Shown: positions 6,881-63,188 of the stretch, piece after piece | Layout: each line of letters opens with the position of its first letter | How positions within the stretch are numbered: the first letter of the stretch is position 1 | DNA from: Larkinella terrae | GTDB lineage: Bacteria; Bacteroidota; Bacteroidia; Cytophagales; Spirosomataceae | Assembly: GCF_009668025.1 (NCBI RefSeq) | Contig: NZ_WJXZ01000002.1 | Span: forward strand, 1 to 64,000 | Reading direction: 5' to 3' | Length of the DNA: 64,000 nucleotides | Position numbers and translations under genes: made by a program | Notes under the pieces: model-generated | Seen by the model: the letters and a program-made list of their open reading frames with translations, nothing else | Database searches by the model: none | Told to the model about the DNA's origin: nothing

Positions 6881-6975
6881 GAATGAAAAATATCAAATGA
6901 TGAATGTTAAATGTAAAAGTATTTTCTAATCCAGCACTTTTACATTTAACATTCATCATTTGATATTTTTCATTC
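6881..6975. repeat. perfect 40-bp inverted repeat with heptad arms
   Basis: Left arm 6881-6920 and right arm 6936-6975 are exact complements around a 15-nt loop. The arms are AT-rich and read as successive 7-bp words beginning AAT (AATGAAA, AATATCA and so on), with one of the two strands carrying the A-rich words. The element occupies the gap between the dehydrogenase and the hydrolase. The long perfect arm is unlike an ordinary terminator and resembles the elements at 35795, 42359 and 18347. Confidence 0.9.
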
Positions 6976-6991
6976 TATTTAAAACCATTTC

Positions 6992-7960
6992 CTAAACCGA
7001 CCTCATTACAAACTCCAGCGCCCGGCGCTCGGCCCACGAAAATTCGTCACCGCGTACGCCAAAGCCAACGTGTCCACCGGTTTTGGGGGTTTCAAGAAAA
7101 ATAGTGGGGTGTTTTTCGGCCAGCCACGCGGGCGAACATTCCGGCGACAACAGCGGATCGTTCTGGGCGTTGATGAGCAAAGCCGGTACAGTAATGCCGG
7201 GCATGTAATTAACCGCTGATGCCTGGGCGTAGAAATCGTCGGCGTCGCGGTAGCCGTTGACCGGAGCCGAAAATAGCTCGTCGAAATCGCGCCAGAGCCG
7301 CACCTGTTCCAGCCTGGTCATGTCCAGGCGGCCCGGAAACCGGTCGGATTTCTGCTGTAATTTTACAATCAGTTTTTTCATGAACCGATTGCGGTAAAAC
7401 CGGTTTTTGGGCAAATCGAGCTGTTTGGCGCTGGCTTCCAGATCCGTTGGCGACGAAATTGCCACGACTTTTTTGATCACATCGGGAGCGGTTTTTCCAT
7501 AAACGCCCGCGTATTTCAGCGTGATGTTGCCGCCCATGCTGAAACCGATCAGGACCACCTCGCGGTAAGGTTTGGTCCGCAACACGTGGTCGATCACTTC
7601 GGCGATGTCGCCAATTTCGCCGTGGTTGTAGAGCCGGAATGCCCGGTTCATTTCGCCACTACACGACCGGCAATTCCAGGCCAGCACGTCCCAGCCCTGC
7701 TGGGCGAAGAGTTTCGCGCTGGCTTTGATGTAGTGCCGGTTGGAGTCGCCTTCCAGCCCGTGCGTCATGAGCGCGATCCGATCACTTTTTCGGTCGATCC
7801 AGTCGAGATCCACGAAGTCGCCGTCGGCCAGCGTCAGGCGTTCCCGCTCATAAGCGACGCCTTCAATCTTGCGAAAAACGCTGGGGACAATCGTTTGGAA
7901 ATGACCATTGATCAAATACCGGGGCGCTCCGGGGTAAGAAGACTGTCGAAGAACCGGCAT
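6992..7960 (-). CDS. alpha/beta hydrolase, YheT family
   Basis: A 322-residue cytoplasmic alpha/beta-fold hydrolase of the YheT/EMB8-like group (predicted esterase or carboxylesterase, physiological substrate unknown). The oxyanion region is LMTHGLEGDSNRHY (65-78). The nucleophile elbow is GFSMGG with Ser141. The acid is likely in NAQNDPLLSPE, and the catalytic His is in TGGHVGFG near the C-terminus. Length and motif order fit the family. It is upstream of the 2-hydroxyacid dehydrogenase on the same strand, but the two are separated by a 95-bp palindromic element, so co-transcription is uncertain. Confidence 0.88.
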   Translation of the reverse strand: MPVLRQSSYPGAPRYLINGHFQTIVPSVFRKIEGVAYERERLTLADGDFVDLDWIDRKSDRIALMTHGLEGDSNRHYIKASAKLFAQQGWDVLAWNCRSCSGEMNRAFRLYNHGEIGDIAEVIDHVLRTKPYREVVLIGFSMGGNITLKYAGVYGKTAPDVIKKVVAISSPTDLEASAKQLDLPKNRFYRNRFMKKLIVKLQQKSDRFPGRLDMTRLEQVRLWRDFDELFSAPVNGYRDADDFYAQASAVNYMPGITVPALLINAQNDPLLSPECSPAWLAEKHPTIFLETPKTGGHVGFGVRGDEFSWAERRALEFVMRSV

Positions 7961-8024
7961 GTCGTAACCATTTAGTCGTTAATGCTGTTATTTTTAACGA
8001 AATTTAGTCTGGTTGGTTCCCGCT

Positions 8025-8489
8025 ATGGCCTTTGCAAAGTATTTTTCGGTTTTAGTAGCCAGTATGTTGAAATTTATCGGCGGCCCCGTAACCGGTATCG
8101 CGCTGGGACTGAACTGGGCAGAAACCTGGCTGTCGACCGTTGCCGGAATGATGGTGAGCGTGGTGCTGGTGACTTACGCAGGGGCCGGTTTACGGACATT
8201 GATGGCCCGGTTTCGCAGTTCGCCCCCGAAGCGATTCAGTTCCCGAACGCGGCTGGCGGTGAAAGTCTGGAAACGGTCCGGAATGGTCGGTATTGCGTTC
8301 CTGACGCCCCTGATTCTGACGCCCATCGGCGGAACCATTCTGGCCATTTCGTTTAAAGTAAACCGCTCCCTGATTTTTAGTTACATGCTGATCAGCGCCC
8401 TGTTATGGGGCATTGTCTTCACGCTGGCGATCTACGAACTGCCGGATTTATTGAACCGGTTTGGCGGAAGCGGTTTTTTGAAGAAGTGA
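8025..8489 (+). CDS. small integral membrane protein, unknown function
   Basis: A 154-residue protein with three or four membrane segments (about residues 10-30, 36-55, 85-105 and 112-135) and a basic loop between the second and third (RFRSSPPKRFSSRTR). I do not recognise its family beyond resemblance to small uncharacterised Bacteroidota membrane proteins. The ATG at 8025 is preferred over a TTG four codons upstream. It diverges from the hydrolase gene (start 7960) and its last 42 bp overlap, tail to tail, the 3' end of the aspartic protease gene on the other strand. Confidence 0.7.
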   Translation: MAFAKYFSVLVASMLKFIGGPVTGIALGLNWAETWLSTVAGMMVSVVLVTYAGAGLRTLMARFRSSPPKRFSSRTRLAVKVWKRSGMVGIAFLTPLILTPIGGTILAISFKVNRSLIFSYMLISALLWGIVFTLAIYELPDLLNRFGGSGFLKK

Positions 8490-9674
8490 GGGAGTTGCCT
8501 CATAAGAATAGTGGTTATTGGGGAAATCAATCCTCAACAATCCCTTACGAAAAGGACGATTACCCATTATTCCGGTGGTTGGTATCGAGAACACATCATC
8601 CTCCCGGGTGCTAATTGGTATATTCTTACAAGAAAGTAAATAACCGTCGTGCGTGAGATTTAAATGCTTCACTCGTTTACCCAATCGTATTGAAATACCT
8701 TTGTTGATTCCCCTTATAACGATAAGTTTTCTGCCAATTGGTAAAGGCTTCAGTTTTGTTATCGCATTTTTATTTAAGTCGAATCCATCTGATCCAGAGT
8801 CATAAAATACGTCAAGTCGTTGGTCGTTTGCTACTTGGATAGCCATCATTGGCATTGATAAACCAAATAAATTCTTGGTTAGTGAGCTGTCAGCAACTGT
8901 TTTTTCTATTGTGAGCCGAGTTTGCGGAAAGTTGACGGTATAAGAAATCTGCCGGAGTACATCCAATCCAATTACGCCATCTATATGTCTCAATGGAAAT
9001 GAGGAATAGCAGTAAACAGGCCAATTTTCGAGTAAAACATTGCCAAATTCAAGGTGTTTAATTGAAGAAATAGCTACCTGAGTTGAACCAGTTGCTGTGC
9101 TGACAGTGCTGTTACTTTCGTAAACTACCAGTCCAAGTTCGTTAGCCAGTAGTCGGCTGATAGCTGTTCTCGAAAAACCTGTATCCAGCACAAACTTCTT
9201 GCGCCGACCTTGAATCAATACTTCCACGACGATCAAACTTTTGTGTCTAAGAACAAAAGGAACAGTATAGCTGACATTTTTGAGGGTAAGTAAGGATTTT
9301 GGGCGGTCGTTAAAAAAGAGAGCGTCAGTATAAAAAGCGGGCTTGCTTTTCGTTTTTTGAGTAAGATCAAGTACGTTTTGAAATTGATTCTGGAAGAAGT
9401 AGAGTAACGCCAGTTGAGATTGAGCCGGTTTTGCAATTGGATTAATGGTATCAATAGCTAGAGGATACAGCATGGCTGCGCTTTGGGTGAACTGATTGAC
9501 CAGGGCCAGTTCCATTGCTTTGAAATAATGGCGGGTTGGCTTATCAAGGCGTGTGGTATCAAACCAAAACGGGTGGTTTGAATGGTTGTACCAGACGGTA
9601 GTAGTTTGGGCTTTTAAATTTGTTGTAATCAGGAATAGAAGGTAAAGGCGAATCTTAAAACTAAAAAGAGACAT
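8448..9674 (-). CDS. secreted retropepsin-like aspartic protease with two half-sites
   Basis: A 408-residue protein with an N-terminal signal sequence (about 1-22, ending KAQ). Residues 30-110 are an alpha-helical, TPR-like segment. A retropepsin-like domain follows, with FVLDTGFSRT (Asp164 catalytic motif DTG) and the later IDGVIGLDVL (231-240) typical of aspartyl protease beta-barrels. A second half-site, VFYDSGSDGFDL (about 290-300), suggests two lobes in one chain rather than the usual homodimer. It may cleave envelope proteins or peptides. The gene is clearly more AT-rich than its neighbours, which hints at horizontal origin. Its 3' end overlaps the convergent membrane-protein gene by 42 bp. 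Confidence 0.78.
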   Translation of the reverse strand: MSLFSFKIRLYLLFLITTNLKAQTTTVWYNHSNHPFWFDTTRLDKPTRHYFKAMELALVNQFTQSAAMLYPLAIDTINPIAKPAQSQLALLYFFQNQFQNVLDLTQKTKSKPAFYTDALFFNDRPKSLLTLKNVSYTVPFVLRHKSLIVVEVLIQGRRKKFVLDTGFSRTAISRLLANELGLVVYESNSTVSTATGSTQVAISSIKHLEFGNVLLENWPVYCYSSFPLRHIDGVIGLDVLRQISYTVNFPQTRLTIEKTVADSSLTKNLFGLSMPMMAIQVANDQRLDVFYDSGSDGFDLNKNAITKLKPLPIGRKLIVIRGINKGISIRLGKRVKHLNLTHDGYLLSCKNIPISTREDDVFSIPTTGIMGNRPFRKGLLRIDFPNNHYSYEATPSLLQKTASAKPVQ

Positions 9675-9794
9675 GTTTATTTATTTTATGTTGTACATGC
9701 ATCACTTGTAATTAAACCTCTTTCAAAATTAGTCAACTGGTTTAGCAGGAACGTTTTTTGAAAAATGAAGAAATACTGCAGTCTAGTTTTGCTC

Positions 9795-11072: not shown

Positions 11073-11145
11073 CGTAAAACCGTGTATTTTAATTATTTGA
11101 AGACCCGTTTGGGTACGTAAAGGTTGTAAAACGCCACGAAAAGTA

Positions 11146-11180
11146 AAAACCCGATTGACCAGCTGAATCCATCGGGTTTT
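11146..11180. terminator. hairpin downstream of the YiaAB gene
   Basis: AAAACCCGAT (11146-11155) pairs with ATCGGGTTTT (11171-11180) over a 15-nt loop. The A and T runs are part of the stem, a form that can terminate from either side. It lies 90 bp beyond the YiaAB stop, and a second hairpin stands at 11212-11249. Confidence 0.6.
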
Positions 11181-11211
11181 CTACGTAAATCGGCGGGTAA
11201 TCAACTAACGG

Positions 11212-18346: not shown

Positions 18347-18448
18347 GGGTTTTGGGTTTACGGTTTACAGTTTTACGGTTGGCTGACGCATCTACATTCG
18401 CGCGTTAACCAACCGTAAACCATAAACCGTAACCGTAAACTATAAAAC
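18347..18448. repeat. inverted repeat with AACCGTA heptad arms
   Basis: Left arm 18347-18382 and right arm 18409-18448 are imperfect complements over a 26-nt loop. Read on the plus strand the right arm is a run of 7-bp words close to AACCGTA (AACCGTA, AACCATA, ...), with one 6-bp slip. It fills the whole gap between the methyltransferase stop (18449) and the propeller gene start (18340) inside an otherwise continuous operon. Confidence 0.8.
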
Positions 18449-25684: not shown

Positions 25685-28600
25685 ATGACCAGGATTTTAA
25701 CCGTAATAGGTAGTTTCTTTTTAGTAATTCTTGGAGTTTTCAGCAGCCAGGCACTGGCTTATGGCGGATCAGAACCGACGGCCAACCGGGTTGCGGCTCC
25801 CAAAATCCCGGAACGTCAGCGCTATCTGGCAATTGTGGTTTTCAACTACGAAACCGACCCTCAGATAGACGATGAACGGATTGAAAATGCGGGTCGTTTG
25901 GGCTGTAATGCCGCCGAAATTTCCGTTCACTGGGACCGGATTTATCCAACCCGAAACAGTGCTCCCAACTGGCGCGTAGTCGACTCCCACGTCAGTACGG
26001 CTTTGCGGATGGGAATGAAAGTGGCCCTCCGGATTCAACTGGCGCGGGAACCGAAATACGTCGACGGTTTCTGGACCAACAAGGAATCGATGCAGGGCGG
26101 TGATAATACCGTGATGAACTTTGGCGGAGCGGTTCAGTTTAGTTTTGCGCATCAGCCGACGCTTGAACTCGCCAAGGATTTTGTTCGGCAGGTTACGCAG
26201 CATTTTCAATACCTGCAGCAGCAGGATCAACTTCTCTTTACGTCGGTGACCGCGTCGCCCATTCAGGAAGCCGAATATTCACCCCGGAATGGTCGGGGAG
26301 ACACCTCATACCCAATTCCGTTCGACTACAGCGACCCGATGAAAACCGGCTTTCGGCAGTGGTTGCAGGGGCGGTTTTCGCTGGAAGCCCTGAACAAACG
26401 ATGGGGCAGTGATTTCAGCAACTGGGATGCCGTTGCTCCTCCTCCTTACAATCAGAATGATCCGTATATTTCCTTTAACCGCGGAAGGTGGGGCGAAGAC
26501 TGGTACGTGTTCCGTCACCTGATGCTGAAGCGGTTTCTCGACGAAACCAACCGGACGATTAAGGAAGTAAACGGCGCCATTCAGGTCGTAAACCAACACG
26601 GTTGCGTCTGGGACCGCCAGAGTGGTTTACGCGGAACGTTCGCTTTCAAGAACCTGGCTCAAAACGCGGATGGCGTTAAAATTAACGACGGCCCGGACTA
26701 CAACCACCGGTTTTCGATGGACGTGGTGCGGAGCAACATCAGGGCGGGCGGCTGGGTTTGTAATGAAGTCGACGGGCTGTTCCACAGCAGCGTATCGGTC
26801 GGCCGGTTTTATGACCAGGCAGCCGAAAGTTTTGAACACGGCGCTCGCCTGGTTACTCTGGCTAACTTCGGTGGCTGGGATGCCCGCGAAACCCTGAATC
26901 AACTGATTCAGCAGATTGTTAACCGGGGTTTGCTGAACCAGCCGGTGACGCAGGTCCAGACCGGAAGCAGCACCAATTATCGGCTGTCGTCGATGGTGAA
27001 GGACGATGTTGCCGATCCATCGGGCCGCGCCAGCGATCAGTGGTCGAAAGAATATGTTCAGAATGGCCGTAAACCGGTCAATATCGTCATCAACGAAGAC
27101 TGGCTGGAAGATAACGCCAATCAGGATCCCCGGGTCCGCCAGACCATTCCCAACCAAACCGCCTACGTAGAAAAACCGTTTGAATTCAGTATTCCTCCTT
27201 CCACATTTGAAGATCCGGACGGTTCGATCACCAAAGTTGAAGTGACTTCCGGTTTACCGGCTCTGGGCCTCTCGGCCAATGGCGTATCCATTACCGGAAC
27301 ACCCAACTCCACCGGAACCATTACGGTGACGGTGAGAGCGATCGACAATAAAAATTCGCCGGTAACCACGCAATTCCAGATTAACGTGCTCGGCCAGAAC
27401 GCCAACCAGGCGCCGATCGTGTCGCAACCCATTTCGGATAAAACCGCCGTTGTGGGGCAGGATTACTCGTTTCGGATTCCAGATGAAACATTCAAAGATC
27501 CGGACGGGCGGATTGTCAGTATAAACGTCTCGGATTTGCCGGGCGGTTTATCGTACAAATCCGAAAACCTTACGATCAGCGGTAAACCTACGGCAGAAGG
27601 CGTATCGACCATTGGACTGAAGGCTACCGATGACAAAGGAACCAGTGTTTCGACCAGCTTTAAATTAACCATTACCAGACAGGAAGAAGTCAACAAACCG
27701 CCCGTCGTCAGCAAAGCCATTCCGGCTCAAAACGCAACCGTAGGTCAGAATTTCAGCTATACCATTCCGGGCGAAACCTTTACCGATCCGGATGGGCAGA
27801 TTACCAGTCTGGACGTATCGGGTTTGGCGAACGGCCTGAATTACGATGCTGACAACCGGACCATTAAAGGAACGCCTAACGCGGCCGGAACGATCACGGT
27901 GAAGGTAAAAGCTAATGATAACAAGGGAGCGAGTGTAACAACCGAGTTTCGGCTGACCATTAATAACTCCACGTCACCCGAACAATTTGCGATTCTGGAA
28001 CCAACAGTGGATTGCAACACCGGCGAGATTAAATTTCGCACCAGCGGAGGAGACAATACTAAGATTGAATTCAAAGCCGTCGGTATTGCCGATGACTGGA
28101 CCACTACCAGCACCTTTACCATTGCTCCCTGGCTGCGCAACGGCACAACGTTCGATATTCAGGCCCGACAAAGCGGCAAAGAGATCAAATTTACGTACAC
28201 CACGCCCTGTAAAGGGTACGAGCCTCCGGTGGTTGACAAACCGATGAGCGATTATACGTATCCGACGGGCCAGTTCTTTATCCTGAAAATTCCACCGGAA
28301 ACCTTCCGCGCTTCTACTCCGTTAGCAATGGCCGTCAGTGCCTTACCCGAAGGACTTGCCTTTGACAAGGTTACCTGGGCCATATCGGGATCACCAACCA
28401 AAGCGGGTACGACCTCGATTACCGTGACGGCAACCGACGAACGGGGCGCGAAGGTTGAGGATGTCTTTCTGATGACCATTCGGGAAAGTGGAACGGCCTT
28501 TACCATGCAGGACCCGACCTTCAATTGCCAGACCGGTAAAATTACCCTGCGTACCGATGGTGGCAACGGCAGCCCGATTACCTATTCGATTCAGGGAATT

Positions 28601-31600
28601 GCCGACTGGACCAGTAACCCAACTTTTACGATCAGTGCCGACAAACTAAACGGAGCGCGACTCACGTTGTTAGCGCGTCAGGGCGATCGGGAAGTCAACT
28701 ACGTTTATAACACCAATTGCTCGGCCCCGGGCTCCTCCACCCTGGCCGACCAGACTATTATTGTTGGCGAGTCCTATTCCTACACGCTGCCTGATCTGGG
28801 TGCCGGTTTTTCGTATAACGTTAGCGGTTTGCCGGACGGGTTGTCGTATAATTCCGGGAACCGCGCGATCTCCGGCATCCCGACGCAAATAGGTTCCAAG
28901 ACATTGATTATCAAAGCGAATGATAGCAAAGGGAATTCAGTAGGAGAACTTACTTTTAAACTGACCGTTATTGCTAAACCATCGACCAGCGGCAATTTTG
29001 AAGGCTATCTGGATTTGGTAAGCTGCCTGAATATAGCGGGTTGGGTGTGGGATCGTGATCGGCCCAACGCGCCTTTGACGGTTGAGTTTCTGGTGGGAAA
29101 CACCATTGAAACCGCCCGCGTCGTTGGCGCTTACGAGGCCAGTCTGTTCCGGCAGGATCTGAAAGACAATGGCAAAGGAAACGGCAACCACGGCTACCGC
29201 TGGGATACGGCCGAAGAGTTGAAGAACAACCAGACGTATTCGATCTGGGGCCGGGTGCAGGGAACTACCTTTCTGCTGAAAGGTTCACCCAAAACGTTGA
29301 CCTGTAACGGCAATACGACGGGGAATCCCACGAATCCAACCAACCCGACCAATCCGACGACCAACCAGCCGCCGGTTGCCCCAAGCCTGTCGAGTCTATC
29401 CGCAACGGTTAACGTAACTTATCTGACAGTTTTACCGGCCTTTACCGATCCGGAAAATGGCGCTATAACCTACACGGTGAGCGGTTTGCCCGCCGGATTG
29501 GCTTTCGATCCGGTTAGCCGAGGACTGAGCGGTACGGTTTCGACGGCGGGTAGCTACAAACTGACGTATTCTGCCACCGATAATCAGGGCGCTAAAACCG
29601 GTATTGATATCACCCTGAATGTTTCGACTTCGGGAGGCACCACGCCGACTAATCCAACCAATCCAACGAACCCGACAAGCGGCAGCTACGAAGGTTATCT
29701 GGATTTGGTAAGCTGTCTGAATGTGGCAGGTTGGGTGTGGGACCAAAACCGCCCCAATACGCCGTTGGTGGTTGAGTTTCTGGTAGGAAATACGCTGGAA
29801 ACTGCCCGATTAGTTGGAACGAACGAAGCGAGTCTGTTTCGGCAGGATCTGAAAGACAATGGCAAAGGCAACGGCAGCCACGGCTACCGCTGGGATACAG
29901 CCGAGGAGTTGAAGAATAACCAAACATATTCAATCTGGGGTCGGGTGCAGGGAACTAACTATCTTTTGAAAGGCTCGCCCAAAACCCTGACCTGCAACGG
30001 CAATACGACGGGGAATCCCACAAACCCGACCAACCCAACCAATCCGACAACACCGACGAATCAGCCGCCGGTTGCGCCTACTGTGTCGGCTTTAACGGCG
30101 ACGGTTAATGTGGCCTACCAAACGACCTTGCCGGTTTTCACCGATCCGGAAAATGGGGCATTAACCTACAGCTTGAGCGGTTTACCAAATGGGCTGAGTT
30201 TCGATGCTGCCAGCCGGAACCTGAATGGGACGGTTTCGACGGCGGGTAGCTACAAACTGACATATTCCGCAACGGATAATCAGGGAGCCAAAACCAGCAT
30301 TGACATTGCCCTGACGGTCAATCCGGCAACGACGACACCGACCAATCCAACGAACCCGACAAGTGGCAGCTATGAAGGCTACCTGGATCTGGTCAGTTGC
30401 CTAAATATTTCGGGTTGGGTGTGGGACCAAAACCGCCCCAATACGCCGTTGGTGGTTGAGTTTCTGGTAGGAAATACGCTGGAAACTGCCCGATTAGTTG
30501 GAACGAACGAAGCGAGTCTGTTTCGGCAGGATCTGAAAGACAATGGCAAAGGCAACGGCAGCCACGGCTACCGCTGGGATACAGCCGAGGAGTTGAAGAA
30601 TAACCAAACATATTCAATCTGGGGTCGGGTGCAGGGAACTAACTATCTTTTGAAAGGCTCGCCCAAAACCCTGACCTGCAACGGCAATACGACGGGGAAT
30701 CCCACAAACCCGACCAACCCAACCAATCCGACAACACCGACGAATCAGCCGCCGGTTGCGCCTACTGTGTCGGCTTTAACGGCGACGGTTAATGTGGCCT
30801 ACCAAACGACCTTGCCGGTTTTCACCGATCCGGAAAATGGGGCATTAACCTACAGCTTGAGCGGTTTACCAAATGGGCTGAGTTTCGATGCTGCCAGCCG
30901 GAACCTGAATGGGACGGTTTCGACGGCGGGTAGCTACAAACTGACATATTCCGCAACGGATAATCAGGGAGCCAAAACCAGCATTGACATTGCCCTGACG
31001 GTCAATCCGGCAACGACGACACCGACCAATCCAACGAACCCGACAAGTGGCAGCTATGAAGGCTACCTGGATCTGGTCAGTTGCCTAAATATTTCGGGTT
31101 GGGTGTGGGACCAAAACCGCCCCAATACGCCGTTGGTGGTAGAATTCCTGGTAGGAAATACACTGGAAACCGCCCGCTTAGTTGGAACGAACGAAGCGAG
31201 TCTGTTTCGGCAGGATCTGAAAGACAATGGCAAAGGCAACGGCAGCCACGGTTATCGCTGGGATACAGCCGAGGAGTTGAAGAATAACCAGACGTATTCA
31301 ATCTGGGGCCGGGTGCAGGGAACTAACTATCTTTTGAAAGGCTCGCCCAAAACTCTGACCTGCAACGGCAATACGACGGGTAACCCCACGACGCCGACCA
31401 ACCCAACAACACCGACGAATCAGCCGCCGGTTGCGCCCACTGTGTCGGCTCTAACGGCGACTGCCGACGTGGCCTATCTGGCGGTTTTACCGGCCTTCAC
31501 CGATCCGGAAAATGGCGCCATAATCTACACGGTGAGCGGTTTGCCCGCCGGTTTGTCTTTCGATCCGGTGAGCCGGGGACTGAGCGGGACGGTTTCGACG

Positions 31601-35794: not shown

Positions 35795-35884
35795 AATATC
35801 GAATACTGAATATTGAAGAACGAATATCGAAGTTAACGTTCACTATTTTCGATATTCGTTATTCAATATTCAGTATTCGATATT
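35795..35884. repeat. 37-bp inverted repeat with heptad arms
   Basis: Left arm 35795-35831 and right arm 35848-35884 are complementary except for one pair, with a 16-nt loop. The left arm reads as five 7-bp words close to AATATCG (AATATCG, AATACTG, ...). It lies between the convergent thiL and mannose-1-phosphate guanylyltransferase genes, 8 bp from the stop of the latter. It has no T tail. Confidence 0.9.
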
Positions 35885-42261: not shown

Positions 42262-42336
42262 GGAGAAAGACGGGTCTCGAACCCGCGACCTCCAGAACCA
42301 CAATCTGGCGCTCTAACCAACTGAGCTACATCCTCC
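42262..42336 (-). tRNA. tRNA-His (GTG)
   Basis: The minus strand folds as a cloverleaf: D arm with AGCTCAGTTGGTTAGAGC, anticodon arm CCAGA-TTGTGGT-TCTGG giving anticodon GTG, and T arm with GGTTCGAGACC. An extra 5' G (position -1) faces C73, which is the identity feature of tRNA-His. One acceptor-stem pair (6-67) is a T-T mismatch by my count. CCA is not encoded. A TATCTTTG promoter box lies just upstream. Confidence 0.95.
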
Positions 42337-42348: not shown

Positions 42349-42356
42349 CAAAGATA
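42349..42356 (-). promoter_or_regulatory. -7 box of the tRNA-His promoter
   Basis: On the minus strand TATCTTTG, a perfect TAnnTTTG box, lies 13 bp upstream of the tRNA 5' end. The palindromic element that starts at 42359 directly abuts it and takes up the -33 region. Confidence 0.6.
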
Positions 42357-42358
42357 AG

Positions 42359-42436
42359 AAATGAACAATGAATAATGAACAATGAATCTGATTTTTTACG
42401 TCAGAATATTCATTGGTCATTATTCATTGTTCATTT
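42359..42436. repeat. 29-bp inverted repeat with AATGAAC/T heptads
   Basis: Left arm 42359-42387 and right arm 42408-42436 are complementary except for one pair, with a 20-nt loop that also pairs weakly (CTGA/TCAG). The left arm is four heptads of AATGAA(C/T) in tandem, giving a 14-bp repeat too. It fills the gap between the tRNA-His promoter and the superoxide dismutase stop codon. Confidence 0.9.
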
Positions 42437-42443
42437 ATTGTTT

Positions 42444-43052
42444 TTAAACCGCCTGAGAATACCGGCTATCGGCTCCGGCCCAATCTACCAGATTCCACCA
42501 GGCTGCGATGTAATCCGGGCGTTTGTTCTGGTACTTAAGGTAATAAGCATGTTCCCAAACGTCCAGCCCGAGGATCGGTGTACCCTTCACTTCGGCGATG
42601 TCCATCAATGGATTATCCTGGTTGGGAGTTGAAGTGATGGCGAGTTGACCATCCGAACTTACGACCAGCCAGGCCCAGCCGGAACCGAAACGGGTTGTGG
42701 CAGCTTTGGCAAATTCTTCTTTAAAAGTCGCGAATGAACCAAATTTCTGATTGATGGCTTCCGCCAGTTTACCGGTTGGCTCACCACCGCCGTTGGGCGA
42801 CAGGATGCCCCAGAAAAAGGTATGATTCCAATGGCCTCCGCCATTATTCCGAACTGCCACCGGATATTTGCTGATATCAGCCACTAATTCTTCGATCGAT
42901 TTACCTTCCAAATCGGTGCCTTTCACCGCGTTGTTGAGGTTGGTCACGTAGGCAGCATGGTGCTTGTCGTGGTGAATTTCCATCGTCTGCTGATCGATGT
43001 GGGGTTCCAGCGCATTGCTCGGATAAGGCAGGGGAGCTAATTCAAAAGCCAT
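42444..43052 (-). CDS. sodA: manganese superoxide dismutase
   Basis: A 202-residue Fe/Mn superoxide dismutase that removes superoxide in the cytoplasm. Metal ligands by position are His27, His77, Asp164 and His168 ([12 protein letters not shown]). The Gly-rich [11 protein letters not shown] motif and the later Gln145 (NQDNPLM) are the Mn-type arrangement; Fe-type enzymes carry the Gln in the first helix motif instead. It stands alone, close to the carotenoid gene; both protect against photo-oxidative stress. Confidence 0.92.
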
Positions 43053-53453: not shown

Positions 53454-55358
53454 ATGACAAAACAACGCATCCGCTGGATTGCCGCGTTGATGACGGTGGG
53501 TTTGCTGGGGCTGATTTCGTTGCAGCTCTACTGGATCAACAACGCGCTTTCGTTGCAGAAGGAACAGTTTGATTATAAAGTGACCGACGGTTTGCAGGAA
53601 GTGGTTCGCACGCTGGAACGCCAGGAAATTCTGTATCTGGCGCGGCAACGCATGAACCAGCAGCAGCAGCAACGTCAGCTGATGGCCATTTCCCGACCAG
53701 CCGTTGGCATACAGTCGGTAAATGACCGCGACCAACTGGCCAAAACGGGCAACCGGTTTTCTAAAAAAGCCCGCACTGAAGCCTATCTGGCAAATCGGGC
53801 AAAAGAACCTATTGTGTCGGAACCGGAAAGCAACGCAACGGTTCCGGTCAGCGTCTGGCAGCAAACGCAGGTTTCGCCTTCCGACGCCTTTCATTCGGAT
53901 GTGCAGAAACTGTCGGACGTTCAGCAGAAGCATTTCGAGGATCTGGTGCGGCAACAGGACGCGCTGGGCCCGGATGAACTCTGGGATTTGCAGATGCAGC
54001 AGCAACGGCAGTTTAATAACCTGGTCGATCAGGTTTTTGAGCGGCAATTGCGGCTGCTATACGCCCAGCCGGACAGCACGCTGATCGTGTCAAGTCCGGT
54101 TAAAAAGCAGCAGATTATTCGCAAATTACACCCGAAACCAAAACCGGTGGTACCGGTTTTACCCGTTGATCAGGCACATTCCAAAGCCGGAATGCGGAAG
54201 GTCGAGCAACAGTCGGAAATGGTAAAAGGGGTGGTGCGGGATTTGCTATTTGCCAATCGCCCGATCGAAAGCCGCCTTAACCGTACGGTGCTGGATTCGC
54301 TGCTGAAAGAAGCCATCGCCGAGCGGGGCATCAGCATCCCTTTTGAATACGGCGTTCGGACCAATGTGGGCGTGGGGCTGGCCAAACCGCAGTTGTTGTT
54401 TGCGTCGCATTCGCAGAATCAGCTTTCGGAGAACAAGAAAGTGTACAAAGCCGTGTTGTTTCCGAACAATTTTCTGGAAAAAGGCAATTATGTGTACGTC
54501 TATTTCCCGGATCAGCAGCAGTTCATTCTGCGGAAAATGAGCGCTGTTCTGGCGGGGTCGGCGATTCTCGTGCTGGTGATCATCACCTGTTTTTACGTTG
54601 CCATCAATACCATTATGCGGCAGAAAAAACTGGCTGATATCAAGAATGATTTCATCAACAACATGACGCACGAGTTCAAAACGCCGATTTCGACCATTTC
54701 GCTGGCGGTGGAAATGGCGCAGGAGCAACTTAGCCACGGCCTGGAACCGGCCGAAGAACCGGCGACGCGCCTGACCCGCTACATGGGCATCATCCGCGAC
54801 GAAACCCGCCGACTGGGTACGCACGTCGAAAAAGTGCTCCAGATGGCGCTGCTCGACCGGGCCACGGCGGGCAAGGGCGCGGTTAAACTAAAATTGTCGT
54901 CGGTCAATATTCACGATGCCATTGGCAACGTTCTCAATACGATCGGTTTGCAGATCGAGCAGAAAGAAGGCGAAGTTCACCTGGATTTTGAAGCCGCCGA
55001 CGAAATTGTGGAAGCGGACGAAGTTCACCTGAGCAACATTCTCTATAACCTGCTGGATAATGCCATCAAATATTCGCCCGAAAAACCGGATATTACCATT
55101 CAGACGCGGAACGTTGAGAATGGGATTAGTGTCACCGTTTCCGATCATGGCATTGGCATGACGAAAGATCAGGTGGGCCGGATTTTTGAGAAATTCTACC
55201 GCGTTCCGACGGGCAACCTGCACGATGTCAAAGGCTTCGGGCTGGGATTGAGTTACGTCAAGAAAATGGTCGAAGAGCACCACGGTTCCATTCGGGTCGA
55301 CAGCCAGTTGGGGAAAGGAAGTTCGTTTGAAGTAATTTTGCCATACCAACACACTTAA
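53454..55358 (+). CDS. membrane sensor histidine kinase
   Basis: A 634-residue two-component sensor. A membrane helix at about 8-28 and another at about 362-386 enclose a large extracytoplasmic domain with a Gln-rich segment (NQQQQQRQ) and no recognised sensor fold. The HisKA box NNMTHEFKTPIS contains phospho-acceptor His406. The ATPase region has NLLDNAIKYSPEKP (N box), GIGMTKDQ (G1 box) and FGLGLSYVKKMVEEHHG (G2). The response regulator gene at 55464 follows after a palindromic element and is its likely partner. The signal is unknown. Confidence 0.93.
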   Translation: MTKQRIRWIAALMTVGLLGLISLQLYWINNALSLQKEQFDYKVTDGLQEVVRTLERQEILYLARQRMNQQQQQRQLMAISRPAVGIQSVNDRDQLAKTGNRFSKKARTEAYLANRAKEPIVSEPESNATVPVSVWQQTQVSPSDAFHSDVQKLSDVQQKHFEDLVRQQDALGPDELWDLQMQQQRQFNNLVDQVFERQLRLLYAQPDSTLIVSSPVKKQQIIRKLHPKPKPVVPVLPVDQAHSKAGMRKVEQQSEMVKGVVRDLLFANRPIESRLNRTVLDSLLKEAIAERGISIPFEYGVRTNVGVGLAKPQLLFASHSQNQLSENKKVYKAVLFPNNFLEKGNYVYVYFPDQQQFILRKMSAVLAGSAILVLVIITCFYVAINTIMRQKKLADIKNDFINNMTHEFKTPISTISLAVEMAQEQLSHGLEPAEEPATRLTRYMGIIRDETRRLGTHVEKVLQMALLDRATAGKGAVKLKLSSVNIHDAIGNVLNTIGLQIEQKEGEVHLDFEAADEIVEADEVHLSNILYNLLDNAIKYSPEKPDITIQTRNVENGISVTVSDHGIGMTKDQVGRIFEKFYRVPTGNLHDVKGFGLGLSYVKKMVEEHHGSIRVDSQLGKGSSFEVILPYQHT

Positions 55359-55456
55359 ACCCCTGATAAACCCTGATTTCCTCTGGTAACCTCTGTGTAA
55401 CAATAAAAGCTATTTCACAGGGTTTATCAGAGGTAATCAGGGTTTATCAGAGGAAA
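55357..55456. repeat. 41-bp inverted repeat with 10-bp words
   Basis: Left arm 55357-55397 and right arm 55416-55456 are about 80 percent complementary over an 18-nt loop. The right arm is four 10-bp words close to CAGGGTTTAT, so the period here is 10 rather than 7. It starts inside the kinase stop codon and runs to 7 bp before the response regulator ATG. Confidence 0.8.
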
Positions 55457-56174: not shown

Positions 56175-56266
56175 TAGACTTTAGACAAGAGAGATTAGAT
56201 GAAAAAGCAACTCGCTGCCTTTTAACCGTTGGTCACTTGTCTATTCTCTTTCTTCTTTCTCTAAGT
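56175..56266. repeat. imperfect inverted repeat in the hemB leader
   Basis: TAGACAAG (56182-56189) pairs with CTTGTCTA (56236-56243) and flanking purine/pyrimidine runs extend the pairing weakly. The left half reads as 7-bp words TAGACTT, TAGACAA and so on. It shares the word TAGACAAG with the elements at 60440 and 63122. Confidence 0.7.
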
Positions 56267-57310: not shown

Positions 57311-58645
57311 ATGAGCACAATTTTGATCCAGAATGCCCGTCTGATTAACGAGGGAACCATTCGCGAAACGGACGTTTATTGCAAAGACGGTTTTATCGAA
57401 CAGATCGGTTCGGGCCTGAACAAACCGGCGGATACCGTTATCGACGCCAAAGGAAACTATTTGTTACCGGGCGTCATCGACGATCAGGCGCATTTCCGCG
57501 AACCCGGTCTAACCCACAAAGCCACCATCCATTCTGAAGCGCGGGCGGCCGTAGCCGGGGGCGTCACGAGCTTCATGGAAATGCCCAACACGGTTCCGAA
57601 CGCGCTGACGCAGGAATTACTGGCCCAGAAATACGACATTGCCGCCCGGACGTCGCTCGCCAATTATTCGTTTTTCATGGGCGGTTCCAACGACAATCTG
57701 GAAGAAGTCCTGAAAACCGATCCCGAAACCGTCTGCGGTATCAAAATCTTTATGGGGTCGTCGACGGGTAACATGCTGGTTGATAACGAAAAGGTGCTGG
57801 ATGCGGTATTTCGGGAAAGCCCGATGCTGATTGCGACGCACTGCGAAGACGAAGCCACCATTCGGGCGAACACGGCGCGGTATAAGGAAGTGTACGGCGA
57901 TAACGCAAACGCCCGGATTCATCCGCTCGTTCGGAACGAGGAAGCCTGTCTGAAATCGTCGTCGCTGGCGGTCGAACTGGCCCGGAAACACAATACCCGG
58001 CTGCACATTCTGCACATCTCGACGGCTGACGAACTGCCGTTGTTCGACAATACGATTCCGTTGAAGGAAAAACGGATTACGGCCGAGGTTTGCGTCCATC
58101 ACCTCTGGTTCGATGCCGACGATTACGACCGGCTGGGCAATCTGATCAAGTGCAATCCGGCCATTAAAGCCCCGCATCACAAACCGCAGCTCTGGCAGGC
58201 CCTGCTCGACAACCGGCTGGACATCATCGCCACCGACCACGCCCCGCACACCTGGGCCGAAAAGCAGCAGCCCTACTGGCAGGCGCCTTCGGGTTTGCCG
58301 TTGGTCCAGCACCCGCTGCTGCTGATGCTGGAAGCGGTTCAGCAGGGAAAAATCACGCTGGAAAAAGTGGTGGAGAAAATGTGCCACGCGCCCGCCGACT
58401 GTTTTCAGATCGACCGGCGGGGCTACGTTCGGGAAGGCTACTGGGCCGATCTGGTGTTGGTTGATCCCAACCAAAAAACCGCCGTTGCCAAAGAAAATAT
58501 TCAGTACCAGTGTGGCTGGTCGCCCCTGGAAGGAGCGGTTTTCGGTGCAACCGTAACGCACACCATCGTTTCGGGGCATCTGGCTTACGCGGATGGAAAG
58601 TTCAATGAAACCGTGTCTGGCAAACGCCTGCGGTTTACGCGCTAA
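57311..58645 (+). CDS. pyrC: dihydroorotase, class I
   Basis: A 444-residue amidohydrolase that closes N-carbamoyl-aspartate to dihydroorotate in pyrimidine synthesis. The zinc motif DDQAHFREPGLTHK (about 57-70), EMPNT, the THCEDE and HILHIST histidines and TDHAPH (catalytic Asp) are in family order. Length matches class I. Its stop codon leads straight into a terminator stem. Confidence 0.92.
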   Translation: MSTILIQNARLINEGTIRETDVYCKDGFIEQIGSGLNKPADTVIDAKGNYLLPGVIDDQAHFREPGLTHKATIHSEARAAVAGGVTSFMEMPNTVPNALTQELLAQKYDIAARTSLANYSFFMGGSNDNLEEVLKTDPETVCGIKIFMGSSTGNMLVDNEKVLDAVFRESPMLIATHCEDEATIRANTARYKEVYGDNANARIHPLVRNEEACLKSSSLAVELARKHNTRLHILHISTADELPLFDNTIPLKEKRITAEVCVHHLWFDADDYDRLGNLIKCNPAIKAPHHKPQLWQALLDNRLDIIATDHAPHTWAEKQQPYWQAPSGLPLVQHPLLLMLEAVQQGKITLEKVVEKMCHAPADCFQIDRRGYVREGYWADLVLVDPNQKTAVAKENIQYQCGWSPLEGAVFGATVTHTIVSGHLAYADGKFNETVSGKRLRFTR

Positions 58646-58683
58646 CGAAAAAAGGCCGACTGCAAAGTCGGCCTTTTTTCGTT
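58644..58683. terminator. bidirectional terminator after pyrC
   Basis: Perfect 18-bp arms (core GGCCGACT / AGTCGGCC flanked by A and T runs) with loop GCAA begin within the pyrC stop codon. It also serves the convergent 67-residue gene. Confidence 0.9.
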
Positions 58684-58700
58684 ATTTGGTTCAGCCTTGT

Positions 58701-58904: not shown

Positions 58905-59042
58905 ACTACATACTACGTTTTTTTGGTTAGAGTTTTGAGGATCTACTCCACATTAGAAAGATGGTCGGCAGAAAGGAAAACATCCGTCGGCATCTCCAAA
59001 ATTGTAACGCATTCTGGTTATTTTTGTTGCTCAAATTTAGAG

Positions 59043-60440
59043 ATGAAATTTTTAAGATTCCAATTTTTATTTGTATTATTTTTTTGCGGCCCATTGAGTC
59101 TGAAAGTGTTAGCTCAGGAGCCGTCCATTGCTATTGAACTGGGCGAAACTGACATTTCGATCCAACGGCCCTTCACGATTTCGGTCATCATCAAAAACAG
59201 CGATTCCCGGCCGATTATTAACTTTCCCTCCATCAAAGGTTTCATTAAAAAAGGCACGGAAACGAGCGTGTCACCCGTCGAAATTAATGGAAAAACCGTT
59301 GTTTCACAAGTAATTACCCAATCATATGCGGCAATTCGTCCCGGACAATACCGCCTGCCGCCGTTCGAACTGGTGGTCGGCGAAACGACGATTCAGTCCG
59401 AAGAAGTCATAATTACCGTCCAAGCCGACGCAACTACAACCCCCGTTGTGGCTCCGCCGGAAACCATTGCCAAAAACGACGTTTTTCTGTCGCTGAGTAC
59501 GTCAAAAGGCTCTGTTTACACTCGTGAAGGGTTTTCGGTAAAATTGTCTTTTTTTGTGGCCGAATCCTACCCGTTTGAGTTAACGTTTTATGAACTTGAG
59601 CAACAGTTACAACAACTTCTGAAAACACTGCGCCCGGCCAATTGTTGGGAAGAAAACGAAGGAATTACAGACCTTTCCCGCCATGCGGTTTTTTTTAACG
59701 GCAAACAGTACGCAGAATACCGCATTTATCAGGCCACGTTTTTTCCCCTGACCCGGCAATCCATCCAACTGCCCTCGGTTAGTCTGAAGTTGCAGCAGTT
59801 CCGACCGGCTGCCAAACCGGGTGGTGAGCGGAAAAAAGAGATCGTATCGTACGCAACCCGCCCACTGTCCGTAAGTGTAACGCCCCTGCCGCCCCACCCG
59901 CTTCGCGATCAGGTGGCTGTCGGGCAATTCCGGCTGATTGAGACGAGTCTGCGGAAAAATCCGGCCGTCGGGCAGAGCGTTCAATATAATTTCCGGATCA
60001 CCGGCGAAGGAAACATCGCGTCTTTGCCCGCTCCGGTCGTACCTGATTCCACGACGTTTGATATATTTCCGCCGTCTGAAAAAGAGGTCATCAACCGGAG
60101 CGGGGGAGTGGTGTCGGGCTACAAAACATTTTCGTACGCGTTGATCCCCCGGCGGAACGGCACCTTCCCGCTGGCGTCGTATTTTCGCTGGATTTATTTT
60201 AACCTGAAACAGCAACGGTACGATACCCTGCGCTCCGCCATCACGTTACGCGTAGGCGGCACGGCTTTACCCGAAGGCGACACGGTCCGGGTCAGTTTGC
60301 CGGGTTCGATTTATACCGGAATCGAGAAAACCGACAGCTCAGAACAACCGGTCAATATGCAGGAAACGCTGCGATTACTGGTAAATATCCTGCTGATCGG
60401 CATGATTCTGGGAATGATGTATTTATTTTGGAGAAAATGA
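59043..60440 (+). CDS. batD: BatD-like protein
   Basis: A 465-residue protein of the BatD (oxygen tolerance) family: signal peptide at 1-22 (ending LAQ), a BatD-like beta-sandwich with TDISIQRPFTISVIIKNS and QSYAAIRPGQYRLPPFE, a second similar domain, and a C-terminal membrane helix (about 445-463). In aerotolerance operons BatD acts with BatA/B; those genes are not here, so this is a solitary copy. The ATG at 59043 gives the signal peptide; 40 codons upstream do not fit. Confidence 0.85.
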   Translation: MKFLRFQFLFVLFFCGPLSLKVLAQEPSIAIELGETDISIQRPFTISVIIKNSDSRPIINFPSIKGFIKKGTETSVSPVEINGKTVVSQVITQSYAAIRPGQYRLPPFELVVGETTIQSEEVIITVQADATTTPVVAPPETIAKNDVFLSLSTSKGSVYTREGFSVKLSFFVAESYPFELTFYELEQQLQQLLKTLRPANCWEENEGITDLSRHAVFFNGKQYAEYRIYQATFFPLTRQSIQLPSVSLKLQQFRPAAKPGGERKKEIVSYATRPLSVSVTPLPPHPLRDQVAVGQFRLIETSLRKNPAVGQSVQYNFRITGEGNIASLPAPVVPDSTTFDIFPPSEKEVINRSGGVVSGYKTFSYALIPRRNGTFPLASYFRWIYFNLKQQRYDTLRSAITLRVGGTALPEGDTVRVSLPGSIYTGIEKTDSSEQPVNMQETLRLLVNILLIGMILGMMYLFWRK

Positions 60441-60530
60441 GTGTAGACAAGAGAGATGAGACAAGAGAATAAAGAAAGGTCAGCTCCGGTTTTTTAATCT
60501 CACGTCTCTTGTCTATCCTCTCACATCTAG
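60440..60530. repeat. inverted repeat with TAGACAAGAGA words, before aroC
   Basis: Left arm 60443-60462 and right arm 60499-60518 are complementary at about 16 of 20 pairs. The left half is purine-rich with words of period 7 and 14 (TAGACAAGAGA, GAGACAAGAGA). It fills the whole gap between batD and aroC and shares its core word with 56175 and 63122. Confidence 0.75.
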
Positions 60531-60536
60531 AAAAAA

Positions 60537-61625
60537 ATGAGCAGTACATACGGAACGCTTTTTAAAATTTCCACTTTCGGCGAATCGCACGGCGCGGCCA
60601 TTGGCGTAATCATCGACGGTTGCCCGGCCGGTCTGGAGGTAGATACGCAATTTATTCAGTCAGAACTGGATCGGCGGAAACCGGGGCAATCGCGGATTAC
60701 GACGCAACGGCGCGAGAAAGACGAGTTTCAGGTACTTTCGGGCATTTTTGAAGGAAAAACCGAAGGAACGCCCATCAGCCTCGTGATCTGGAACGAAGAT
60801 CAACGCAGCAAAGATTATTCGCACATTTCGCAGCAATTCCGCCCGTCGCACGCCGATTATACCTACCAGCAAAAATACGGCGTGCGCGATTACCGGGGCG
60901 GTGGCCGCAGTTCGGCCCGCGAAACCGCTGCCCGCGTGGCTGCCGGAGCCCTGGCCAAACTGTTGCTGAAACAGCAGGGTGTTCAGATTCAGGCGTATGT
61001 GTCGCAGGTCGGTAAATTGAAGCTCGAAACGCCGTATCAGCAACTGGATATTTCGAAAGCAGAGGAAAACGCGGTGCGTTGTCCTGACCCGGAACTGGCG
61101 CAGCAGATGTTCGACTACATCGACGAAACCCGGAAGCAGGGCGATTCGATTGGTGGCATTGTGTCGTGCGTTGTGACCGGAACGCCGGTGGGTTGGGGCG
61201 AACCGGTTTTTGATAAATTACATGCCGAACTGGGCAAGGCCATGTTGAGCATCAACGCCGTGAAAGGCTTTGAATACGGCAGCGGTTTTGCGGGCGTCGA
61301 ACTCCACGGTTCGGAACACAACGACGAATTTTACATTGAACCGGGCGACGAAACCGGTCGCGTTCGGACGCGGACCAACCATTCGGGCGGGATTCAGGGC
61401 GGTATTTCCAATGGCGAGGATATTTATTTCCGCGTGGCCTTCAAACCCGTTGCAACCATCATGCAGGATCAGGACAGCGTCGATGTCGACGGCAATCCGG
61501 TGGTGGTTTCGGGCAAAGGACGGCACGACCCCTGCGTGGTGCCGCGCGCGGTTCCGATTGTGGAAGCCATGACCGCGCTGGTGCTGGCCGATTTTTACCT
61601 GCGGAACAAAGTCGCGAAAGTGTGA
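60537..61625 (+). CDS. aroC: chorismate synthase
   Basis: A 362-residue FMN-dependent enzyme that makes chorismate from 5-enolpyruvylshikimate 3-phosphate, the last step of the shikimate pathway. It starts [18 protein letters not shown] (the family signature), and has [19 protein letters not shown] and [17 protein letters not shown]. Length and motifs fit well. No other shikimate gene is near. Confidence 0.95.
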
Positions 61626-62677
61626 GCTTCAAACTTGCCCCCCACCCCCTGAAGGGGGCTTTTGTAAGCATTTTTTTTAAAGCCCCCTTCAGGGGGTGGG
61701 GGGCAGTACCGGTTCTAGCCTTTTTTTTCGGGTTATGGGCCGAGAACGCAGCCGCCCAGCCGCTCCGGCGCTACGTCTTCGACCGGGGGCTGTTTGGAAC
61801 CGAGTTTCGCCAGATTTTTTACGCGCCCGACGATAGTACTGCCCAGCACGTTCGTCGGGCGGTGGATACCCGAATGGATTCCCTCAATGTCGTCATGAGC
61901 GATTACCTCGACGGTAGCGAGATCAACCGGTTGTCGGCTACGGCGGGGTCGGGGCGCTGGGTAGCGGTTTCTGCGGACTTATTCGATGTACTCAATCGGG
62001 CGGTTTCCATTGCCCGGGCGTCCGACGGTTTATTCGATCCGACCATTGGGCCGTTGTCGCAACTCTGGCGACGGGCGGTTCGGCGGCAAATTTTCCCGAC
62101 CAAACCGGAGCTCCGAAAAGCGCACCGGCTGGTTGATTACCGGTACATTGAATTTGACGCCGGTCAGCGAAAAATACGGTTGAAAAAACCGGGTATGCGG
62201 CTCGATGTCGGCGGAATCGGGCAGGGATACGCCAACGATGAAGCGATGAACGTTCTTCAACAATTGGGTATAAAATCCGCTTTACTGGACATTGGCGGGG
62301 ATATTCGGCTGAGCGATCCGCCACCGGGCGAACGCGGCTGGCGTATTCTGACCGGTTTTAGGGCCGATACCACCACCTTGTTTTTGAGCCACGTTGGCAT
62401 AACCGCGTCGGGAGCCACGCACCGGTTTCTCGACCACAATGGCAAACGGTATTCCCATTTGATGAATCCACGAACGGGATTAGGACTGCTCCATCATGTA
62501 CAGACGACGATTCTGGCCCCCGACGGCACCCAGGCCGACGCGCTGACAAAAGTCTTCAGCGTGGCTGGAATTCGAAAAAGTAGGCGGCTGGTGAAGCGGT
62601 TTCCGGGTGTAACAGTTTGGATTACGGAAGAACGAAACGGAAAACCGCTCAAGTGGAGTTCAAAAAAAGACCTGTAA
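61622..62677 (+). CDS. apbE: ApbE-family FAD:protein FMN transferase with palindrome-derived N-terminus
   Basis: A 351-residue ApbE-like flavin transferase. The family motifs are intact: [27 protein letters not shown] and [10 protein letters not shown]. It would act outside the cytoplasm, so a signal peptide is expected. The best start is the GTG at 61622, overlapping the aroC stop. Codons 5-28 are the palindromic element at 61636-61705. The hydrophobic part [17 protein letters not shown] comes right after it. No ATG is seen in frame before residue 60, so the element may have replaced the original start, or a non-ATG start is used. Confidence 0.85.
61636..61705. repeat. G/C-rich nested palindrome inside the apbE reading frame
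   Basis: Left arm 61636-61662 and right arm 61679-61705 are perfect 27-bp complements with a 16-nt loop. The core CCCCCTGAAGGGGG is itself palindromic. It is of the same family as the element at 1645-1779 (CCCCCTAAAGGGGG core). Here it is translated as part of apbE. Confidence 0.9.
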
Positions 62678-62702
62678 GGTTTTGAAAACCTTACAGGTCT
62701 TT
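62666..62702. terminator. bidirectional terminator overlapping the apbE stop codon
   Basis: A perfect 18-bp stem (AGACCTGTAAGGTTTT and its complement) with a 1-nt loop; the apbE TAA is within the left arm. It also ends the convergent exbD gene. The CCTTACAGGT core looks like a repeat found at other sites in related genomes, from memory. Confidence 0.85.
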
Positions 62703-62718
62703 GAAACTTCCAGGACTC

Positions 62719-63111
62719 TTATTTCGAGGTCGCCATGACCATTTTGATGTTCAGTTTGGCACCGGTTTGCAATACATCGACCAGATCCTGAACGGCGAGC
62801 GTTTTATCGACCCGCACCACAATCGTTGGTTCGAGAACGTCCTTCAAAACCGACTTCAGCTCCATTTCCAGATTTTCGGGCGAAATTGGAGTTTTATCGA
62901 TAAAATACCGCTTTTCAGCATCGACCGAGAGCGTAATCTGTTTCTTGCTCAACTGCTGCGACGAAGCGGCTTTGGGTAGCAGTAGTTTAATGACGTTAGG
63001 GTTGGCCACCGTCGAGATAATCAGAAAGAACAACAGCAGGAAGAACATGATGTCGTTCAGGGAGGAAGTAGCAACCTCGGCGGCAAACTTGGTTTTTCTT
63101 CGGAATTTCAT
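62719..63111 (-). CDS. exbD: ExbD-type biopolymer transport protein
   Basis: A 130-residue ExbD/TolR protein: a single membrane helix at about 21-42 (NDIMFFLLLFFLIISTVANP) whose conserved Asp (SLNDIMFF) carries protons, then a periplasmic domain with VDAEKRYFI and IVVRVDKTLAVQDLV. It works with ExbB to energise TonB receptors. It follows exbB across a 67-bp palindromic gap. Confidence 0.9.
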   Translation of the reverse strand: MKFRRKTKFAAEVATSSLNDIMFFLLLFFLIISTVANPNVIKLLLPKAASSQQLSKKQITLSVDAEKRYFIDKTPISPENLEMELKSVLKDVLEPTIVVRVDKTLAVQDLVDVLQTGAKLNIKMVMATSK

Positions 63112-63121
63112 TGTCGGAGAT

Positions 63122-63188
63122 TATAGAGAAAAGACAAGAGAAAAAAGACGGTTTTTGGGTTTGTCTTTCGTCTCTTGTCTAACTTCTT
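63122..63188. repeat. inverted repeat with heptad words between exbB and exbD
   Basis: Left 63125-63149 and right 63163-63186 are complementary at about three quarters of positions with a 13-nt loop. The left half is purine-rich words of period 7 (TAGAGAA, AAGACAA). It contains AGACAAGAGA, also found at 60446. It fills the gap between the exbB stop (63189) and the exbD start. Confidence 0.75.

Follow-up and report, generated by a model that had tools for sequence, protein, structure and literature searches.

The heptanucleotide short tandem repeats of cyanobacteria are known as STRR. Here we describe palindromes of intergenic gaps, in many of which the arms consist of degenerate tandem words, usually of 7 bp and sometimes of 8, 9 or 10, from a window of 64,000 nucleotides of Larkinella terrae (Spirosomataceae; contig NZ_WJXZ01000002.1, positions 1-64,000) and from related genomes. 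Intergenic 7-bp tandem words have also been described as TAACTGA (PMC4679880) and GGGAATC (PMC4692102) repeats; the TAACTGA sets are direct repeats that lie before start codons in several genomes, whereas the elements described here are palindromes behind stops. Direct tandem heptads are common to our elements and to STRR and other heptamer repeats, and the palindromic arrangement and the other periods come in addition.

Dispersed intergenic palindromes in many copies are likewise found in the repetitive extragenic palindromic (REP) and REPIN systems with TnpA-REP (RAYT) (PMC3733652, PMC3116915). The stems described for them carry GTAG or CGTC, measure 6-13 bp and mostly enclose short loops, whereas the arms in the window's genome measure 20-46 bp and contain tandem words, their loops are mostly of 8-40 nt (65 of 74 sampled hairpins; 40 nt was the upper limit of the search), and no link to a transposase was found. 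Template switching has been reported to homogenise the arms of inverted repeats and to invert their spacers (PMC8604942), and it can create and maintain hairpins or stems, with loop inversion among the patterns (PMC8794818). The resulting quasi-palindromes (PMC8604942, PMC8794818, PMC7202029) share with our elements arm homogenisation, multi-base paired changes and spacer inversion; the events described in the accessible parts of these papers lie at isolated sites, within coding genes, RNA genes or reporters, whereas here a population of gene-end palindromes is found in one genus. Small inversions between palindromic arms are also known at chloroplast hairpins, which belong to organelle DNA and, in the text available, have no apparent tandem-word arms or dispersed families (PMC2903610, PMC12371153). 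In another Bacteroidota genome, that of Porphyromonas gingivalis, tandem and inverted repeats are combined as a minisatellite inside a miniature inverted-repeat transposable element (MITE), a likeness by description only (PMC4596501). No account of such palindromes in Spirosomataceae was found in a literature search with subscription papers mostly outside its coverage. Each mechanistic step invoked below is already known; the genome-scale bacterial case is what is new.

The palindromes fall into several dispersed families. They lie a short way downstream of stop codons where neighbouring genes run in tandem or converge, and seldom between divergent genes. Comparison of orthologous gaps shows that word-family hairpins as a rule persist, that their two arms change in concert, and that some loops are inverted. 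From these sequence comparisons we consider it probable that DNA synthesis templated by the partner arm, through template switching, homogenises the arms of these dispersed gene-end palindromes and that the arms grew by slippage. A change would start in one arm, as a substitution, a slippage of words or a short insert; at replication the nascent strand would leave its template for the opposite arm and later return, so that the second arm acquires the change, and a switch spanning the loop would leave the loop inverted. Such arm-to-arm copying would keep the arms complementary though the sequence of each drifts. Families would also spread between gaps and be lost from them.

Arms and loops at orthologous gaps

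We compared nine genomes (G000, G002, G004, G005, G006, G008 and others), namely the window's genome and eight congeners whose synteny with the window varies in extent. Species were grouped by sequence identity; sister species are 91-92 percent identical and the more distant pairs 84 percent. In the gap at 35795, where the window carries the heptads AATATCG-AATACTG-AATATTG-AAGAACG, all nine genomes have a heptad-word hairpin and the words differ among species, most congeners having heptads other than those of the window. G005, G004 and G002 have a common loop sequence there and, by eye, apparently four, three and two heptads, equal in both arms. The gap at 55360 holds a period-10 hairpin in all eight genomes that possess it, with CTCTGATAAA words here and CTCCGCTTAA in other species; three of the five genomes possessing the 6881 gap have a hairpin (G004 and G006 are without), and the word family is retained in most congeners possessing the gaps at 55357, 60440 and 63122. 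The arrangement at 56175 is common only to G006 and G005, the gap being shorter in G004, G008 and G002, and for 18347 no orthologous gap was found in the congeners searched. For word-family hairpins placed by their flanks, the orthologous gap likewise contained a hairpin in 45 of 57 comparisons between sisters and in 177 of the 244 others. The comparison of orthologous gaps proposed in a preliminary description of the window, for which the same arm sequence conserved without variation at orthologous sites would have been the unfavourable outcome, showed arms that vary between species.

Between sister species, we counted 53 double changes that preserve Watson-Crick pairing, where about 4.0 were expected, and 69 double changes of any kind against 12.0 expected (16 not Watson-Crick). 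Hairpins for this count were picked in one species only, 62 alignments were used and 2 skipped, and both directions of a pair were counted; divergence per site was 0.086 in the arms and 0.066 in the flanks. Comparison of G004 with the sister trio gave 72 paired changes against 8.1 expected (59 alignments used, 6 skipped), and the 84-percent pairs gave 24 against 2.1 (9 used, 1 skipped). When the count was limited to the 33 pairs, from 16 loci, whose loops are homologous, it gave 76 double changes against 15.6 expected, with a compensated pair at 9 of the 16 loci. The widest count (125 pairs; 323 double changes against 74 expected, 271 of them Watson-Crick) was set aside as main evidence because it required a called hairpin in both species; the homologous-loop count and a count of 29 close pairs use parts of it and, having the same requirement, favour paired changes. 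Compensated changes are unevenly distributed over the 29 close pairs (none in 18, 1-2 in five, and 5-7 in six, which represent five loci); in some of the pairs where they are bunched, one element may have replaced another.

Replacement by family members would be the rule if these were mobile palindromes, REPIN- or MITE-like, whose inverted loops would then be re-insertions. The bunching fits such mobility. So do three further observations: in 8 of 73 comparisons the site is nearly empty in the sister species (G002 C15:629625 against G008 is one case), which shows gain or loss of hairpins; at the gap g115/g116 one family occupies the place of another; and some families are abundant, with 100 or more places in the genome, and several families recur in our sample. 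On the other hand, flanks and several loops are unaltered where the arms are altered, and no carrier enzyme was found (see below), so that we judge this explanation unlikely.

Short inserts mirrored in both arms point to template switching between arms. At G002 C15:537400 a 16-bp insert is present in both arms in exactly complementary form, while the 22-nt loop is identical to that of G005 C12:188698; at G004 C11:378959 another 16-bp insert stands in both arms relative to G005 C12:422254, with a similar loop. One-arm states exist too: at G002 C15:328523 and C15:465737 one arm has an insert that the other lacks. A scan for indels of at least 4 bases in both arms found three pairs at three loci, of which one (TTTT, G006/G003) is trivial, and indels in one arm only were seen in 14 pairs, though the ungapped finder selects against such pairs. 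In G008, the palindrome at the 35795 ortholog reaches as far as the upstream gene's stop codon, its right arm mirrors the left flank up to that codon, and a second copy of the 14-mer CAGTATTCGATATT follows the far arm; this single case would be the footprint of copying past the end of the palindrome and then switching back. As a separate observation, GC-rich inserts of about 16 bp and of related sequence lie at the same point in arms of the GC-rich families (compare Table 1) at G002 C15:537400 and C15:465737 and at about 27-66 of the window.

Loops were scanned for matches in both orientations, those shorter than 8 nt being left out (35 of 189 pairs in the first scan, 16 of 95 in another loop count). 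With the threshold at the 99.5 percent level of non-orthologous loops, 25 of 154 testable pairs matched forward and 12 inverted; by locus, 21 had no match, 13 matched forward only, 2 both ways and 1 in inverted orientation alone. When the scan was widened to 319 comparisons of a hairpin with a gap, 45 matched forward, 17 inverted and 257 not at all; 27 of 50 loci had a match, 6 of them an inverted one. Spacer inversion is clear at three loci, namely 55360, G005 C12:426839 / G002 C15:328523 and G005 C12:41515 / G002 C15:686225, and weaker at two: G000 C12:100156, which falls between the 99 and 99.9 percent levels of the wider scan, and 6881, whose loop passes the first scan and is probably inverted relative to the congener G002. 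At 55360 the orientation is inverted between groups of congeners, the highest inverted scores being 0.85 (G004 with G002) and 0.83 (G000 with G004). The orientation in G000 differs from that in its nearest relative G006, and that in G002 from that in G004; given the grouping by identity, at least two flips therefore took place there.

Several results weigh against homogenisation of the arms by template switching. Single-arm changes outnumber compensated ones in the sister count (143 against 53), so homogenisation would be incomplete, and the loops could not be aligned in 13 of 29 orthologous G005/G002 pairs, so element replacement fits these as well. GC-rich hairpins are often absent from the sister's gap (a hairpin was found in 7 of 16 sister and 8 of 31 other comparisons), and their mismatches lean towards G-T over A-C in the sense strand (17 against 8, p 0.11). 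At 35795, G008 has words like those of G000 and its sister species G005 and G002 do not, which suggests element exchange or incomplete sorting. As for the loops, no inversion was seen at 21 of the 27 loci with a loop match, the 1 percent threshold would yield about three inverted matches in 319 comparisons by chance, and the 6881 loop fails the wider scan (0.60 against 0.64). The loops at loci 10 and 29 of that scan are built of arm words and were set aside as inversions. Even at 55360, the G005/G002 pair is inverted in the first scan (0.62 against 0.25) and evenly balanced in local alignment (0.47 against 0.47, 0.54 against 0.54), which does not settle the orientation of G008 either; moreover, the period-10 family has similar loops among its dispersed copies, so the inverted states could partly be re-insertions.

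It is possible, and we propose it only tentatively, that the genus and probably some other genera of the family carry a lasting population of gene-end palindromes continually rewritten by arm-to-arm copying, so that related species differ in the words, their number, the inserts and the direction of the loop, and yet keep the palindrome. If so, what is retained whatever the sequence would be a property of the palindrome as DNA: it might extrude a cruciform or make replication forks pause where genes end, and a dedicated factor might take part. It has long been asked how extended stems remain paired as their sequence changes, and template switching has been proposed as one answer (PMC8794818). 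With many palindromes in one genus, sister species to compare, inserts mirrored between arms, arms changed singly and loops flipped, the rates of arm copying and loop flipping would be directly measurable, and the case serves as a warning that covariation in an alignment need not imply a functional RNA structure.

Tandem words and their dispersal

In 464 kb of the window's own genome we found 47 hairpins with a score of at least 18, and none in one second-order Markov copy; at score 17, 664 kb (8.5 percent of the genome) yielded 86. Period analysis was done on the 74 hairpins with arms of at least 20 outside open reading frames (ORFs). Mean autocorrelation at period 7 was 0.407 in these arms against 0.273 after shuffling (z 12.2). 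Periods 10 (z 5.2), 14 (z 4.2) and 8 (z 3.7) were raised as well, and 32 of the 74 were significant individually; several word lengths thus exist, of which seven is the commonest. Because the 74 arms include non-independent copies, the analysis was re-run with one arm from each of 17 sequence clusters, and the excess held (0.358 against 0.266, z 4.2, 0 of 500 shuffles as high), while 1221 intergenic control windows without hairpins gave 0.274, near the shuffled value. The 7-bp words reported in the preliminary description thus exceed shuffled controls, and the period of 10 that it gave for 55357 was recovered in the arm autocorrelation.

Heptad arms of this kind might be plain heptanucleotide microsatellites, of the STRR type, that face each other by chance. 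An over-representation of heptamers among the tandem repeats of bacteria has been reported and tentatively ascribed to polymerase slippage (PMC4692102), and we found pure AGACAAG arrays scattered across many phyla (80 of 117 stretches listed). Only 1 of these 80 (of 117) stretches was located in a hairpin, however, whereas the stronger hairpins of the window reach 85-100 percent complementarity across 37-46 bp, and period 7 is only one among several periods; chance facing is accordingly very improbable.

The preliminary description had assigned different words to each site, but the words recur as dispersed families. Ten window arms (its eight sites plus 1661 and 61636) were compared by BLAST with 600 kb of the same genome and the rest of the window; nine had matches elsewhere, against two of ten reversed-arm controls. 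The 63122 arm is hardly above its reversed control (3 places against 2), and the 60440 arm has 5 places against 1. The only arm without a match, that of 55360, looks by eye like the dispersed CTCCGCTTAA / CTCTGATAAA family, and arms resembling the 18347 palindrome occur at L015, L018 and L079. Genome-wide, the 20-mer AATGAACAATTAACAATGAA is found at 439 places with up to 3 mismatches (reversed control 20), and the GC-rich core CCCCCTAAAGGGGGC has 114 exact matches (reversed control 0). What had been proposed to write the palindromes was a site-autonomous process of templated or slipped synthesis. Its templated part, as copying from arm to arm, is supported by the paired changes, the mirrored 16-bp inserts, the one-arm states and the inverted loops, whereas its premise of words peculiar to each site gives way to dispersed families and to word families kept in the congeners.

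Mobilisation by RAYT was considered and rejected, as three loci with Y1 transposase matches, taken with 1.5-kb flanks, showed no convincing link to the palindrome families of the window: L027 had no hairpin and L028 only a weak AGACAAG-like one. The third locus, L026 (G000:C18:72071-75415), carries eleven TCGC-GCGA palindromes around its Y1 transposase gene, on both sides; they are distinct from the window families, and the locus resembles a RAYT with its own REP family.

Beyond the genus, a 20-mer of AATGAAC words (up to 2 mismatches) was present in 36 of 198 genomes of the phylum, a draw that left out the congeners, with 258 matches in G000, 20 in G128 and at most 9 in the others. Within the family, the AGACAAG word (up to 2 mismatches) was detected in 21 of 121 genomes, among them 8 of the 9 of the genus; the reversed control of this word had many matches in certain other family members (68 in G256), where a different heptad word may be present. 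By eye, tandem-word palindromes were recognised in 4 of 13 stretches of 20 kb from other genera of the family (G207, G209, G213, G230) and, outside the family, in one of 6 stretches as a weak example (G128), several of these stretches lying on contigs picked through earlier pattern-search matches. A motif, GGCTGACGC / GCGTCAGCC, was also noticed near the apex of hairpins of differing word families (18347-18448, L015, L018, L079 and loops of 35795 orthologs). GGCTGACGC occurs at about twice the expected frequency overall, and 12 of its 37 sites are in hairpins or no more than 40 nt away; the hairpins account for 1.9 percent of the sampled sequence.

Gene-end position and the level of pairing

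In the nine genomes, with greedy ORFs in place of a proper annotation as gene calls, word-family hairpins numbered 139 in 747 tandem gaps, 55 in 156 convergent gaps and 9 in 197 divergent gaps. In the tandem gaps of our own sample, 28 hairpins lay a median of 7 nt behind the upstream stop, and 18 of them were closer to the stop than to the next start. Such closeness to stops and scarcity in divergent gaps would be expected if the hairpins were RNA elements, either terminators or stabilisers of mRNA 3' ends, and the paired changes were compensatory mutations under selection on the transcript. The position could also mark where inserts are tolerated.

Selection for pairing in RNA should favour G-T over A-C mismatches. 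When hairpins of tandem gaps were oriented by the genes on either side, 139 word-family hairpins outside the GC-rich family showed 116 G-T and 122 A-C mismatches in the sense strand (p 0.75), which counts against pairing at the RNA level; the lean of the GC-rich family given above goes the other way. The short-loop, terminator-like controls gave 36 against 24 (p 0.16), also in the RNA direction, and, since neither this lean nor that of the GC-rich family is significant, the power of the mismatch test is modest. The T fraction in the 10 nt after the hairpin was 0.28, compared with 0.36 for short-loop hairpins, and RNA elements would not be expected to show 16-bp inserts mirrored in both arms or loops in inverted orientation. 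On balance, transcript selection appears a rather unlikely source of the paired changes. Intrinsic terminators, as short loops followed by a U-tract, were set aside in view of the same T content and of the loop lengths, and the only Rfam family at gathering score in the window was the tRNA at 42262-42335.

Sites of the window

Each site was folded as single-strand DNA and compared with 200 dinucleotide shuffles (Table 1). The preliminary description had listed eight gaps with inverted repeats. Inverted-repeat-like sequence is present at all eight and six beat every shuffle, but 56175 has no palindrome beyond chance and 60440 is weak; taken as a whole, that description was partly confirmed and proved largely right. 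The two GC-rich palindromes, at 1661 and 61636, have the same build and size class and were absent from its list.

Table 1. Palindromes and hairpins of the window, with folding scores relative to 200 shuffles
Feature	Positions	Structure	Folding z	Shuffles as good
Palindrome, GC-rich family (CCCCCAACCCCCTAAAGGGGGC)	1661-1764	perfect 46-bp arms, 12-nt loop		
Palindrome	6881-6975	perfect 40-bp arms, 15-nt loop; TGATGAATNTTAAATGTAAAAGT arm family	-15.6	0/200
Palindrome, imperfect	18347-18448	CGGTTTAC-type heptads, inner GGTTGGCTGACGC	-4.9	0/200
Palindrome	35795-35884	convergent gap; 37-bp arms (97 percent)	-13.5	0/200
Palindrome	42350-42445 (42359-42436 in the preliminary description)	AATGAAC/AATGAAT heptads	-11.1	0/200
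Palindrome	55360-55453 (55357-55456 in the preliminary description)	period 10, CTCTGATAAA words	-8.6	0/200
Inverted arrangement, weak	56175-56266	AGACAAG/AGAGA	0.17	113/200
Short-loop hairpin, contrast case	58643-58684	A/T runs, ordinary terminator-like		
Palindrome, imperfect	60440-60530	AGACAAG-GAGAGAT heptads, 36-nt loop	-1.65	11/200
Palindrome, same GC-rich family as 1661	61636-61705	perfect 27-bp arms, 16-nt loop		
Short-loop hairpin, contrast case	62666-62702	convergent gap, terminator-like		
Palindrome	63122-63188	AGACAAG-type, 13-nt loop	-4.2	0/200

The 42350 palindrome is flanked by the stop of a minus-strand ORF (42444-43052) and by the tRNA gene. Elsewhere in the window, at 25685-32851, an ORF of 2388 amino acids contains tandem-repeat rows at 29852, 30536 and 31220, spaced 684 bp apart.

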